Shown one piece after another: positions 34,101 to 58,118 of a stretch of 64,000 nucleotides of DNA; positions within the stretch are counted from its first letter, which is position 1, and every line of letters begins with the position of its first letter. The notes beneath the pieces are model-generated. The model had not been told where the DNA came from. It did not search any database and was given only the letters and a program-made list of their open reading frames with translations. Source of the DNA: Diphasiastrum complanatum (Eukaryota; Streptophyta; Lycopodiopsida; Lycopodiales; Lycopodiaceae); the NCBI GenBank assembly GCA_029204225.1, contig CM055095.1, positions 19,801,450 through 19,865,449 of the forward strand, written 5' to 3'. A program made the position numbers and the translations under genes.

Positions 34101-35394
34101 CCGTAGGCTAAAAGCTGTATGTCGAGGCCAACTGTGATGTCATAAATTGAAAATAATGACCTGCTATTTTTTTCCTTACCAAGCCACCCACTGCTTTTTC
34201 ACCAAATTGAAAGCCAAATCGACGTCGCCTTCCAAAATGCACTTTGTCGCCAACTCTCAACTACGTGCCCAATGGAATGGTGAAATCGCTTTTGACATGC
34301 TCTAAGCACTTTCTCTACTGCAATCACTTTGTTTTATGGTATTGTGCTTGCAGGTATAGCCCGGGTGCCCTTCATTTGGAGGTTATAGCCTTTCGTTTGG
34401 GTCAAAACGGATAAAAGTCCCAAAAATAAGGACTTTTCTAGTTTTTGAATTGTTTTTTCAGAGTGAAGAAACTTTACCTTTCATAAACTTGGGACCCAAC
34501 TTTTATTTCATAGTGAACGTTTTTATTGAAGTTGAATGGCCAATTTTTTTTCAATGGCCTTCAGGTCCCTTTCAAGCCAATCTAATGGCTTCTTCTCATC
34601 CAACGGCCTTCATAGCTTTTCATCAGCGCGATCTCCACCGTCAATGGTTAGTTCTTTTGATCTAACGGTGATGCATGATCTGGTGTGCTAATAAAAGCCC
34701 CTCCAACCGCTGGCCACTCAAATACACCAGGGATTGGCAAGTGTGAGGGCGCGTGATCTGACTCCTCCTTCCTGTCTATGGTTGCGCCCTCCCAATCCAA
34801 TTTTGGCCTGAACAAATTCATTTTTTGATCGATTTGAGAACGCTCTGAGGCCTAGAGCAGGGTCGCCCTACTGATTCCAAGATTACAGAGTACTTAAATA
34901 TGAAAATTTGTGGAGAAACGGTGATTTTAGCTCAACTTGAAAAAGTGGCTTTCTTTCACCTTTTACCGCAAATATGCTAGGTTATTTGTCTGTAGACAAA
35001 TCTTTGACACAAAGCTCAGAATCTCTCCATGGCTGGTTGACAATATAATTAGCTTCCTTCCTATCTTTACGGCATCCAAAACGGAGCACAAACAGCGAAG
35101 AAATCACCAGTTATGTATAGAAAACCGTAACCCCAAACCGGTTTCAATTTTTCAACTGGCTTCAAAATTGTCAATTTTCCACCAAATTGTTCCCTGTCTG
35201 ATGCTATGCACAGGCTAATAAGCCCTCTGTTGAGCTTGGCAAGCCTCTATAAACTAGAAACCGTGCACCAATGCTTTACTTTCCGTCTACAACCCGTCGT
35301 AAACCCCGAACTCTTAGAAGACTGCTCTCCTCTCAAAGCTCTCTTCAACAACGACACTGTACTAGTGTACACTCCCTATACAGCTCTGATACCA
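34101..35394 (-). other. possible 5' leader of the minus-strand gag element
   Basis: No gene is seen. A primer binding site in minus orientation at 35383-35394 suggests that this 1.3 kb is an unusually long leader, or several unrelated fragments. Confidence 0.35.
35383..35394 (-). other. primer binding site, minus strand
   Basis: TGGTATCAGAGC on the minus strand is a perfect match to the copia/gypsy site for initiator methionine tRNA. The base pair before it is GT rather than the usual CA of an LTR end, so the LTR itself is not confirmed. Confidence 0.65.
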
Positions 35395-35669: not shown

Positions 35670-37015
35670 GATAGTGCATCAATCCTAGATCGCTCATGTC
35701 AAAAGCATTGAAAAGATCTAATTTGATTTCATCAATTAAGCTCTCATTACTTCCTGTAATAATCAAATCATCAACATACAAAACAATGAACACTATATCT
35801 GAATCTTGCCTTAGAATGTAAAGATTAGGATCGGCATTGCCATTCCCCTTCGCTTGAAGTATTCATCAATGCAAGTACCATGCCCATGGTGCTTGCTTCA
35901 ATCCATAAATAGCTTTGTTGAGCTTACAAACAAGATGCTCTCTTCCTGGCTCAACAAATACACCTCTTCATCCAGCACTCCATTTGTTGGATCTTCTAAC
36001 CATAGAAAGCCGAAATAACAATGATAGAACGTATAGTTACCATCTTAGCTACAAGTGCGAAGGTTTTCTCAAAATCAATACCTTCCTGCTACTCAAATCC
36101 TCTCGCAACCAATCGTGCTTTGTGCTTGTTGAGTTGGCCATCCACTTCATATTGATCTTATAAATCCATTTGCAAGTGATAGGCATCTTACCATCAGGTA
36201 GCTCAACCAAGTTCCACGTCCTAGTTTTTGATATGGCTTCCATTCATATTTCCATAGATGCATGCACTCCTTGTACTCCTTTGCTTCATCAAAAGTTTTT
36301 GGTTCTTGAGCCTTGAGCATAAAACCCATTAGGGCTACATTCCTCTCTAATCTTGCAGGAGGTTTACGATTTCTTCTTGACCTTCTAAGCTCTCCTTGCT
36401 CACTAGATTCAGGAGTATCTCCCTTCTTAGCATCACCTGCGATTGATATGTACCATTTAGGTACTCTCTTAGAAATTTCAGCATCAAACTTGCCTTTGTC
36501 CATTGATCTTCCGCATCAAATTCCACTTCCTTTTTTACCTATACTTTCGCTCCCTCATTAGATGGTTCAGTGATTATTCAATTTGTTCACCTTGACTCAT
36601 CTCGTCAAATGTAGCATCCCTAGAAATCACAAGCTTCTATGCATTCGTGTCATACATCCTGTATGCCTTGGCCTTCTCGTCATATCCAAGGAAAATACAC
36701 CTGACAGCTTTTGCATCCAATTTATATGAGCATAGGCATCACAACCAAATACTCTCAAATGAGAAATATTAGATTTATTTCCAGTAAAAGCTTCATGATG
36801 TGTCTTACCTTCCACATATTTCATAGGACACTGATTCAGGATGTGCGTAGCTATGTTGCAAGCTTCTGCTAAAAAATGTTTGGCAAACTCTTGCTTTTGA
36901 GCATTGGTCGGGCCATCCCAACAATGGATCTGTTCTTTCGTTTGACAATTCCATTTTGTTGTGGTGAATAAGGTGTTGTAGTTTGTCTCTTGATCCCTTG
37001 ATCTTTTGACTCTTT
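35670..37015 (-). pseudogene. copia integrase and RT, minus strand
   Basis: Minus-strand pieces in order: integrase around 37015-36625 (TTTPYSPQQNG, SHLRVFGCDAYAHI), integrase tail and linker 36503-36290 (KRVPKWYISIAGDAKKGDTP, RRSRRNRKPPARLERN), RT entry near 36243 (TWNLVELPDGKMPITCKWIY), and RT active site near 35790 (VLYVDDLIITGSNESLIDEI). Frameshifts separate them. The nearest relative in the window is the plus-strand copy at 19655-22954, which shares IDEIK and FDMSDLGLMHY. Confidence 0.85.
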
Positions 37016-53245: not shown

Positions 53246-53282
<37 letters not shown>

Positions 53283-53480
53283 ACCCTATCGGCCGCCCGC
53301 GCCATCGGCTGGCACACTTCGGCCACGTACATACACACACATACATCGGCCACCCATCAACGACCAAATTGTTGGCTCGCACACACACACACACCCCATC
53401 GGCCGCCCGCGCCATCGGCTGGCACACTTCGGCCACGTACATACACACACATACATCGACCACCCGTCAACGACCATCAG
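53060..53480. repeat. minisatellite block with a 130-base tandem duplication
   Basis: The left part has degenerate units of about 20 bases built on GGCCACCCAAACCATT. The right part is a 130-base unit duplicated at 53236 and 53366, each with AAATTG(T)CGGCTCGC, a CA run, CGGCCGCCCGCGCCATCGGC and CACTTCGGCCACGTACATAC. Much more GC-rich than its surroundings. Confidence 0.9.

Positions 53481-54644: not shown

Positions 54645-54724
<80 letters not shown>
54645..54724. repeat. (CT)40 microsatellite
   Basis: 80 bases of uninterrupted CT/TC. Confidence 0.95.
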
Positions 54725-54726
<2 letters not shown>

Positions 54727-55230
54727 GGATGCTCCTTTGTTCAGTTTCACCCTACTGCATTAAATAGAAAAGTGGACAGATAGTGACGTACCGCTACTTC
54801 AAACTTACAAGGTTTTTATTGTTGTACCCTTGCATATGATGAAGTTCCATTTTTAACTTAGAAGGTTTCCCACAAATATTTGAAATGGTTTGGTTTGTTT
54901 AAAATAATTTGGAGGGAAATGGAATTTCCCACTCCCACTCTCTCGTTCCAGGTTACTACCTTACTGGGCACTATAAGTGCATGCTCTTTTCAACCCTTTT
55001 GTTTTACAACACTGGTGAAGAACTCTGCTCCTCTGTCACTCACTGAAAGTGTGCCCTCCTACCTACGGATCAACGATTTGATAGCTTACGGTATGTATTT
55101 GCTTCTCTCTTACACTCCGCTCGTATTTACTCTACTTTCCAGGAGAAGGATGCTTTAATAATGCTTTTTTAATATGCCACTCATCTCTCTTTACCATGTA
55201 AAGGCTGTGATAGGTCAAGAACACATTGAG
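54725..55230. other. intergenic DNA, nothing recognised
   Basis: No coding or repeat signal before the hairpin array that starts at 55231. Confidence 0.5.
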
Positions 55231-55753
55231 GTCCAGCGATGGACAAGAATATCACTTTTTGATTCTTGAAACCGTCCAACCTGTCTCAATAGGCAGCGAT
55301 GGACAGTTTTGGTTATGTGATAATTTTCTGAGAGCGCATGTGATAGTAATGATATAATCACGATTTTTCCATGCTTTGGCTTGCTCCTTATGGCTCAGAG
55401 CAGCGATGGAGGGCTGCCTCACTCTTGCACATACTATATGCACTTTTTGGTGATTGGAATGGGTGCTGTCCAGCGATGGACAGATCACTGCAAACCGTTC
55501 AAAAGATGAGTGTTTATCAATATTGCTATGTTCAATCCAACGATGGATTGCATAGGCATGATAGACTCACATTTACTCACCAAATCTACACATAGAGACC
55601 CTACTGTTCCAGCAATGGACAGGAGAGTGGTCTCCTTTTCAAATGTTAATATTGTAAATTCATTTATGGCTAACTGTCCAGCGATGGACCATGAACTTAT
55701 GCTATCTGTTTATAGACTTCTTCACTTTATTAGCCTCCTCCAACCAGCAATGG
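55231..55753. repeat. array of eight short hairpins around CCAGCGATGG
   Basis: Copies lie at 55231, 55294, 55401, 55466, 55533, 55604, 55676 and 55744. The best are CTGTCCA-GCGA-TGGACAG (55466-55483), CAATCCA-ACGA-TGGATTG (55533-55550) and GTCCA-GCGA-TGGAC (55231, 55676). Loops are mostly GCGA or GCAA, of the GNRA tetraloop type on the plus strand. The spacer sequences between copies are unlike each other. A further relative is CAACCC-AGCGA-GGGTTG at 57320-57336. The function is unknown. Confidence 0.75.
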
Positions 55754-56376
55754 AAGGATGGACACATTCAAGCTTAGCTCTTACATATGTGCTCTCTTTA
55801 CAAGTGTTCATAGATCTTGTGATCTCATAGTATGAAGCTAATGATATCTCATGTTGTAGCTTCATTATACTGCTCCGGCTTCGTCAGAATATTACTTGGT
55901 TCTTTCCTCAACCGACTACTCACTATTGAAAGGTATGCAGCCAACTGGATATCTGCAATGTAAGTTAACTAACATAGTCAAAAGATGTCTTGTAAAGTGC
56001 TTTCTACATAACTTTTCGAAGCAATATGCTCACTCCACAGTTTCTTGGCTTTCTTATAATCTAAAAGAGTAAGAACTTAGTCGCTTAAAAACTACTATGG
56101 CTACCTCTCAAGAAGCTATGTCTACAACTATTCAGGTATGCTTTCCGAGTTTAAATATATTCTTCACAACTTCGGTAAGTATGGTAGTTTTGGTCCCATA
56201 AAGGCTATAATATACCTTCACTCTACATAAATTGACTTTTTCTTTCCGCTTTTTTACTTCCCTTGTTCAAAACTAAGTAACGACATAAGACCACACTCAA
56301 ATCAAACTAAAATACCTTGAAATAAGAATTTATCACCAAAAGTAACAGTAAGGACTTCATTATTATGATCTTAGAT

Positions 56377-56695
56377 AGCATGGATATGCATAAGAATCAT
56401 AGTTTATACTACGAGATTAGAATAGCACGGATCTGCCCTACTACCCAATATAAACATTAGTAGTCTCTTACTCTGTTTTAACCACATCTTTCCTATACAT
56501 TGTCCTTATACCGTGGATGTTATATCATTTTGATATAACATTCAGGGTAATACTTCACCTTTCTTCTATTAGTGTTACTTTAGACTTTTGGTGAGATACA
56601 ACTGGAAAGCATGGATATGCTAGGAGTATGAATAGCAGTGCGTGACATACCTTATGCCGTAAGGGTCACTTGGGTCAATATAGCATGGATTTGCT
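56377..56695. repeat. second dispersed hairpin motif, AGCATGGATATGCT
   Basis: Copies at 56377-56390, 56425-56434, 56608-56621 and 56682-56695 share AGCA.GGAT.TGC with inverted arms; 56608 is a perfect AGCAT-GGAT-ATGCT. The last copy runs directly into a sequence that is the complement of the TGGTATCAGAGC primer site. A separate perfect hairpin (TGTTATATCA / TGATATAACA) lies at about 56519-56543. Confidence 0.65.
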
Positions 56696-56704
56696 CTGAT
56701 ACCA
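56693..56704 (-). other. primer-binding-site match, minus strand
   Basis: TGGTATCAGAGC on the minus strand. No LTR end in CA is next to it (GTGC precedes), so it may be a decayed element or chance. If real, the hairpin arrays to its left would be the leader of a minus-strand retroelement. Confidence 0.4.
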
Positions 56705-57780
56705 GCACACGTGTTCACACCAAGTCTTTTGGCTAAATAAAACTCCTAATGATAAAACCGATTATTTCATCAGTTTTTCGTTGGTCGACTTCATAGTCAA
56801 GTCAAGATGTGAATTCTATCTTAAATCCAGTTTCCACTATCTTTATGCTGAAGAAATAGAGAACTGTTATAAAAATTTCTTTGTAATTCATAAACGTATT
56901 CTAGATGAGAGTACGTTGATTTTTGTCTTAAAAAGCAAAGTTGATCACAAATGCGTCGTGTATGATAGCTGAAGTTGAATTTTTTTATGGTAATGTTTTC
57001 GTCTTTTTATTGCAAATGGACCAAATTGTAGCTTATTTTTGTTTACAAAGCTCAAACAAAATCATGTGATCCGTTTTAAATCTATTGGTGCTTTTGGTTT
57101 TAATAAGCCTTTGCGACAATCAAATTAGGATAAACATACATTATTGTTGGTCGCTGATAGTATCCCTATATTGTCCCAAAACGGACTTGAAAATCACTTC
57201 AAAGCTCTAACTCATCAGCTAGGATGCTTTTGTGTTCTTATCTTATGACACACGATGCTTCTTAGCATTGCTTGGAATTTCTTTACAGCTAATGCATTGG
57301 TCTGCTTTCTTTCTGCCCCCAACCCAGCGAGGGTTGTAGCCTTCTGTGGTGTTGATAATCACAAGCCAATTATGTCTTTGAGACCAAGTAAAACAAATAG
57401 TAAACATGGCAGAATAGCTTTGAAGTAATTAGAATGTGCATCGATTTCGAAATTGGATATTATTATGCACATCCACTGTGGCTATTAAAGCTTTCTGGTT
57501 TTAATTCGTGTTCAAGGAGGAGTTGACTGGACTTAAAACATTCCAGCCACTTATTCAAAAAAATTTAAGTGCTCTCCACATAGTCTACTTTGTTTTAAAA
57601 AGGTTATTGATCTACTTGCAACATTAAGCTTTCAAAATAATTTTCTAAATATTTGTGGTGATGCGTTATTCTTCACTCTTTTATTTATTCCTTGAAGCAT
57701 TTTATAACCTCCCTCTCTTATTTATTCCTTGAAGCACTGTGGGTGATTCTTTCACTACAAGAACGAGAGTAGAAACTACT
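56705..57780. other. intergenic DNA, no gene recognised
   Basis: Contains a two-copy direct repeat ending TATTTATTCCTTGAAGCA at 57683-57700 and 57719-57736, and the stray hairpin CAACCC-AGCGA-GGGTTG at 57320. Confidence 0.5.
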
Positions 57781-57809
57781 TCCACCTTTGCAAATTTGAA
57801 ACCCTGAGA

Positions 57810-58118
57810 TTGTCTGAACTTGCTTATCCACCTCAAAGAAGTGCTATTTTCAGGCATAGTAAAGGATTGGCTGAGGTGGCTGATGACTTCTCCCAGTTGT
57901 CCATTTCAAGCGTTTCTTGTCCACAAGACTATGAGCTTCGCGACAAAGCAAGAATGTATTTCTTTTTAGGAGCCCTTTCTATCGCGTCATTCAGGCCAAG
58001 ACTTGATTCTGAAGGAGCTCCTATCTCCACTTTGATCATAGGAGATAGTATTCAAATTCCAAGAGGGTGGATATTTCCAAGAACTGTGGACCCTCTGAAC
58101 ATTGGTGTGCCAAATTAA
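57810..58118 (+). CDS. unrecognised ORF, possible exon or gene fragment
   Basis: A 102-residue frame with protein-like composition: SKGLAEVADDFSQLSISSVS, CPQDYELRDKARMYFFLGAL, then TLIIGDSIQIPRGWIFPRTV. I do not recognise the family. The stretch after TTTTCAG at 57855 could be an exon with an acceptor there, which would make the first 15 residues intronic. No companion exons were found on either side within 2 kb. It could be a retained gene fragment. Confidence 0.35.
   Translation: MSELAYPPQRSAIFRHSKGLAEVADDFSQLSISSVSCPQDYELRDKARMYFFLGALSIASFRPRLDSEGAPISTLIIGDSIQIPRGWIFPRTVDPLNIGVPN

Follow-up and report, generated by a model that had tools for sequence, protein, structure and literature searches.

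Within a 64,000-nt stretch of the Diphasiastrum complanatum genome (contig CM055095.1, positions 19,801,450 to 19,865,449; hereafter the window), a row of short hairpin-like motifs raises the question of whether an RNA structure, a sequence or neither has been kept there.

Eight oriented sites in the window

The array exists, with eight sites of the CAGCGATGGA type at about 55233-55754. Its core is clustered as described in the initial annotation, because 8 of the 11 window matches of CCAGCGATGG (at most 1 mismatch) fell inside 55233-55753. Only 1.3 such matches were expected in the window, and 11 were reached in 0 of 100 shuffles. The looser core CARCRATGGA gave 8 copies at 55234-55754, every one on the plus strand, and one extra exact match at 36919, and with one mismatch allowed it showed no window-wide enrichment (21 vs 16.5 expected).

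All eight sites lie on the plus strand; site 5 was placed by alignment, and sites 1 to 3 and 6 to 8 by core match together with the alignment of copies. Sites 1 (55233-55243), 4 (55470-55480) and 7 (55678-55688) read CCAGCGATGGA, sites 2 (55293-55303, at the end of CCTGTCTCAATAGGCAG) and 3 (55400-55410) read GCAGCGATGGA, with a G.G mismatch in the small stem, site 5 (55537-55547) reads CCAACGATGGA, and sites 6 (55609-55619) and 8 (55744-55754) read CCAGCAATGGA. The spacings along the array were 60, 107, 70, 67, 72, 69 and 66 bp, so that of the 52-107 bp originally given the upper limit was right and the minimum was wrong, the actual range being 60-107 bp. This evenness was matched by about 0.2% of random placements. 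A supposed ninth relative at 57320 was indistinguishable from chance in a covariance-model search of the window (E 1.9), since unrelated window matches scored 1.6 and 1.7.

The spacers had been called unrelated. Within the array this was upheld by the global alignment score (-8.47 vs -8.48 for shuffles, fraction 0.51), by in-register identity (fraction 0.27) and by the best single local pair (fraction 0.11), but the mean local alignment score was slightly above that of shuffles (13.0 vs 12.0, fraction 0.017). Units including their spacers could thus not be aligned in the manner of a satellite, as judged by global alignment and in-register identity in the window array. The initial annotation had named alignable spacers as evidence for a diverged satellite; spacers do align between copies of the element described below, whereas those separating the sites of the window array do not align with one another. 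Another locus, L010, appeared by eye to be an exception, with similar flanks. No description of this array was found in the literature, in which subscription journals were thinly covered, and a search with the core letters gave nothing on plant repeats among the papers listed.

The array is part of a dispersed element

Across the genome (1.745 Gb), CCAGCGATGG had 6,243 exact matches (3,003 + 3,240), against 292 (145 + 147) for a reversed control, and core pairs with 45-75 bases between them numbered 661, against 1 for the control. When core pairs were listed with a pattern allowing 55-85 bp, 31 of the first 40, some of them duplicates, had a spacing of 66-72 bp. With the 591-bp array as a DNA query, 466 first-look candidates were obtained; every one of the 40 that were scored matched, the 39 besides the window with 87-93% identity. 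Twenty regions were also hand-picked from 100 listed core places, core clusters being favored, and among these CARCRATGGA was present in 14 (six were without it) and 9 could be aligned to the window element.

The order of sites recurred in these relatives. Counting cores with at most 1 mismatch, we obtained spacings of 60, 111, 67, 67, 71, 69 and 66 bp in L017, 60, 109, 66, 67, 70, 69 and 65 bp in L023, 60, 110, 69, 67, 65 and 120 bp in L012, and 60, 111, 69, 22, 22, 67, 71, 69 and 66 bp in L018, where site 4 has been amplified locally as 22-bp repeats. The spacings in L014 (62, 120, 71, 67, 69, 122) and L020 (61, 121, 67, 70, 53) were similar to the window pattern. A second array layout was seen in L009, L013, L019 and L022, with two arrays each in L013 and L019, and L010 held what appeared by eye to be a young tandem array of about 69 bp (five spacings of 68-70 bp). 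At 2858-3019 of L016 (reverse-strand positions), six exact cores are clustered at intervals of 17-49 bp; here CAGCGATGGA is reused in the manner of a minisatellite, outside the 69-bp arrays. The array is part of a dispersed high-copy element and not a stand-alone hairpin family; the whole leader has spread, with site order and spacing preserved at other loci, in place of the single mini-palindromes that had been proposed.

In the window, the element is a truncated leader-region copy at approximately 54725-56765 (plus strand, BLAST), whose right end varies between copies. It matched L012, L017, L018 and L023 with 72-83% identity (BLAST), and also the sister copies L039-L047. A (CT)n microsatellite at 54646-54724 (plus strand, TRF) abuts the element start, CATGGATGCTCC. 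Such a tract lies immediately upstream in 8 of the 9 copies with a recognizable start, of which L040 and L041 are near-duplicates and L017 is the exception, and it is also present upstream in L042 and L043 (mutual near-duplicates) and L054. The right end runs into (CT)n in L042, L043 and L018. The tract may be the insertion target or may be carried by the element. Positions at which element ends enter (CT)n are about 4900 onward in L018, 3392 in L042 and about 2040 in L054.

Reading the alignment of relatives, we place the putative TATA box (CACTATAAGTGC) of an element promoter at 54972-54976 (plus strand); among five aligned relatives, L018, L012 and L023 have the TATA-like box, L017 has lost it by deletion and L014 lacks it. 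The alignment also suggests a putative first coding exon at 56097-56135 (plus strand), reading MATSQEAMSTTIQ with GT directly behind it, and this exon would join an ORF found in longer copies and missing here. The sequence CAG|GTA after this exon is shared by the window and 5/5 aligned relatives, and the ATG is present in 4/5, being deleted in L012; a possible partner exon in L029 starts after TTTTAG. As for a further intron around the array, candidate splice sites were not conserved in the aligned relatives. On this reading, the array lies downstream of a putative TATA box and upstream of a putative start codon.

Longer copies contain, in the same orientation, the ORF (4,071 first-look candidates, 150 scored) and a reverse transcriptase (RT) piece (3,751 first-look candidates, 150 scored). 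Their ORF pieces had no Pfam match above the curated cut-off. The RT was recognized by motif reading together with a sub-threshold Pfam match: DISKCYENIP, IRGIPMGFSCSP and YIDDICFINNP were read by eye in L013, L052 and L054, and the piece matched RVT_1 with E 7e-4 and 19.7 bits, under the 29.6 cut-off of that family. Searches of PDB gave no RT match, one profile search gave nothing better than E 0.42, and an NCBIfam search and a plasmid tblastn with the RT yielded nothing useful. The array precedes the ORF in L029 and L032, and by eye it also follows an RT match at four places, at 1,259 bp (C12), 1,257 bp (C1875), and 1,142 and 98 bp (C10). In L054 the order is RT, (CT)n, leader-like start. 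An array both before the ORF and behind the RT is the pattern that head-to-tail copies or pseudo-LTRs would give.

Several other features were seen in the window. An open frame at 57747-58115 has a weak similarity to plant glutamate receptor 3.4 at its end (E 0.05) and is possibly a gene fragment beside the element. A 110-bp repeat in two copies (95% matches), with (CA)n and GGCCG blocks, lies at 53270-53476, and elsewhere there are Ty1/copia-like frames and an amino-acid transporter.

The core outlasted the spacers between subfamilies

We compared the decay of the core and of the spacers in an alignment of the window array, its nine sisters and six more distant copies. Within the window subfamily (28 pairs among 8 copies, after two near-duplicates were removed), identity was 90.6% for the 11-bp core and 90.9% for the spacers; with transitions set aside the core was slightly better kept (98.2% vs 97.0%). 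This near-equal decay indicates that the core is hardly protected, if at all, once a copy has inserted.

Between subfamilies (15 pairs), core identity was 86-94%, or 97-100% with transitions set aside, whereas spacer identity was 41-77%. Here "subfamilies" are single representatives set by identity, of which L014 and L020 align poorly in the spacers, and the relatives were chosen by holding an exact core somewhere, a slight bias toward the core. When 2,000 random sets of 8 x 11-bp blocks were drawn from the spacers, the core value was never reached in 5/5 distant relatives, and it was reached in 40% and 22% of draws in two sisters. Among the aligned cores, many differences convert CG into CA or TG, or CAG into CAA, which would be expected of methylated-cytosine decay. 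The seven arm-flank positions were 46-84% identical between subfamilies and exceeded the spacers in 14 of the 15 pairs, mostly slightly, and for this reason the arm flanks may have a weak structural role. Because the core is kept between subfamilies and decays like the spacers within one, selection thus acted on a sequence signal within mobile lineages, and not on the arms. The initial annotation was therefore right that something is kept; the kept feature is the asymmetric sequence CCAGCGATGGA, not the hairpin arms.

The array is probably best explained as an 11-bp signal, CCAGCGATGGA, that occurs eight times in one direction and is kept in a retroelement leader for recognition by a protein. 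The array would most likely have originated when a unit of about 69 bp was duplicated in tandem, after which an element-encoded or host protein would recognize the signal, either during transcription of the element or during packaging of its RNA for reverse transcription, the array presumably being transcribed. Many sites would give stronger, multivalent binding, whether the signal is read as RNA or as DNA. The window copy itself would be dead, truncated and drifting freely.

A possible form of this explanation, to which we give a good deal less weight and whose likelihood is already counted in that of the whole, is a DNA enhancer or insulator, in which clustered sites for a host transcription factor would drive the element. 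The core is near-palindromic, eight sites lie just downstream of the putative TATA box, and sequence rather than structure is kept, all of which suit it; but enhancers have no need of one orientation for all eight sites, and the sequence by itself reads the same for a DNA site and for an RNA signal.

The arms are not coupled

We consider it unlikely that the unit is a short-stemmed RNA hairpin with a GCGA tetraloop, which would dock an element protein and whose pairing would be selected. The core can form a GNRA-type hairpin (CCA-GCGA-TGG) and the array folds better than shuffles as RNA (z -2.76), but the minus strand folded as DNA gave the same value (z -2.75). The initial annotation had taken matching changes in both arms as pointing to a kept structure or to mini-palindromes repaired by arm-to-arm copying. 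The arms at 55466 and 55533 are indeed both perfect in the window copy (7-bp arms at the former, site 4). The claim was not confirmed for the family: 142 of 500 shuffles attained the covariation score, and left/right half swaps among the eight window sites gave fractions of 0.02-0.15. Of 10 close copies, the window copy is the only one with the perfect arm at 55533 (site 5). In all nine sisters (L039-L047) the arms there are CTATCCA/TGGATTG, which leaves a T.T mismatch, and CCTTCCA is found in L017 and L018. The simplest reading of this alignment would be a single substitution that perfected the arm of the window copy. At sites 2 and 3 (55293 and 55400), the G.G mismatch falls on the third pair and leaves the hairpin with two pairs. 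Because a C at this third stem position was found in 0/16 aligned copies, the small hairpin is not kept at these sites, though the core is.

The arms were also permuted. When arms were permuted freely in a different and larger data set, 110 distinct sites of several subfamilies, 171 of 440 outer pairs were formed against 145 expected (fraction 0.002); the search pattern for these sites admitted only CG-to-CA and CAG-to-CAA changes, so that the core tally there says nothing on decay. When arms were permuted within the same site only, in the 14-copy alignment (near-duplicate sisters L041 and L043 dropped, 9 of 112 site-rows lost to gaps), 195 of 412 outer pairs were formed against 195.5 expected. 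The excess under free permutation is likely due to shared descent of the sites, which the within-site control removes.

It is very improbable that the array is the neutral remnant of an ancient 69-bp minisatellite, with a likeness among cores that comes only from their use to anchor the search and the alignment. The 69-bp period and the young-looking tandem array of L010 suit a minisatellite origin, but drift along active lineages should erase the core like the spacers, and the core outlasted them. Mini-palindromes that spread independently and were repaired by arm-to-arm copying, of which the 22-bp amplification of site 4 in L018 and the core cluster of L016 at 17-49 bp are reminiscent, can practically be dismissed, because whole leaders spread with order and spacing kept, and arm-to-arm copying is not needed when the arms are uncoupled within a site.

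A multibranched RNA fold with compensating changes

A conserved multibranched RNA fold of 36 pairs with two GGAT-loop motifs lies at 56588-56723 (plus strand), 0.8 kb from the array; part of the D2 motif family belongs to this domain. In 4/5 relatives no other stretch of the element is as well conserved as this domain with its surroundings, and L014 is without the domain. Across 14 of the 15 distinct copies (L042, in which part of the fold is deleted, was omitted), 97.2% of pair cells form, compared with 24-47% when the partners are slid. Changes on both sides were observed in 13 cells of 5 pairs; in shuffles, 13 cells were reached in 0/500 and 5 pairs in 33/500. The covariation score of the fold, 0.158, was likewise reached by 0/500 shuffles; shuffling of this kind does not correct for the shared descent of the copies. 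Compensating changes thus occur in this fold and not in the array. The region matched no Rfam family at gathering score, and a lax threshold gave chance-level matches only.

An exact 12-base match of TGGTATCAGAGC, which we take to be the usual tRNA-Met primer site, lies at 56693-56704 (minus strand) and overlaps helix 7 of the fold. Further exact matches at 35383 and 41087 (minus strand) may belong to copia elements. A minus-strand LTR retrotransposon, as TGGTATCAGAGC could suggest, was rejected, since there is no LTR pair and the ORFs of the element are on the opposite strand in other copies. A cluster of snoRNA, tRNA or miRNA genes was rejected as well, ARAGORN giving no match and Rfam none at gathering score; the best weak match of the region, snoR8a (E 0.45), was below the cut-off.

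Relation to known retroelements

The closest kind to this element would appear to be the Penelope-like elements (PLEs). In PMC11167929, PLEs are described in tandem or partial tandem with pseudo-LTRs, and PMC9033089 reports plant PLEs, namely Dryads in conifers and EN(-) PLEs in spike moss and conifers. The element resembles these in its diverged RT and in a leader that precedes the ORF and also follows the RT, an arrangement like that of tandem pseudo-LTRs; the tandem copies and pseudo-LTR feature of PLEs are thus found here. It differs in that its leader is long and contains an eight-site array and, separately, a multibranched RNA, and in having neither a GIY-YIG nuclease nor a hammerhead ribozyme. 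For the GIY-YIG endonuclease, a Pfam scan of 13 ORF pieces gave no match, and the RT end of L054 was read to the stop without one; EN(-) PLEs also have no GIY-YIG. For the hammerhead ribozyme, which many EN+ PLEs carry in the pseudo-LTR, the window and 12 loci matched no Rfam family at gathering score.

The Naiad/Chlamys PLEs, the subject of Craig et al. in 2021, reportedly have a CxC motif before the RT, pseudo-LTRs and a microsatellite bias, and their N-terminal GIY-YIG is said to be linked to the RT by the CxC domain. Here, FFKCRCGDKC precedes the RT and (CT)n lies at the element ends; unlike in those PLEs, the CRC motif of L049 is in a 467-aa ORF with no GIY-YIG match. Retrozymes (PMC4918200) are reportedly plant retroelements carrying a noncoding structured RNA, as this element does, whereas no ribozyme family matched at gathering score here. 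The element would work like a tandem PLE-type retroelement, but we do not file it as a PLE, since no GIY-YIG nuclease was found in the ORF pieces scanned.

More speculatively, and with rather low expectation, the element could represent an undescribed plant branch of PLE/telomerase-like elements, with thousands of candidate copies, an ORF before the RT, (CT)n insertion and an intron-bearing long leader, in which a docking array of CCAGCGATGGA with a 69-base period and the multibranched RNA would mark unspliced RNA for reverse transcription.

In a mobile family of this kind, a kept sequence and a kept structure can be separated, since dead copies provide a neutral clock and subfamilies show selection. 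An abundant retroelement whose RT is diverged and whose conserved RNA is absent from Rfam would make the choice of its own RNA by a retroelement testable in a plant.
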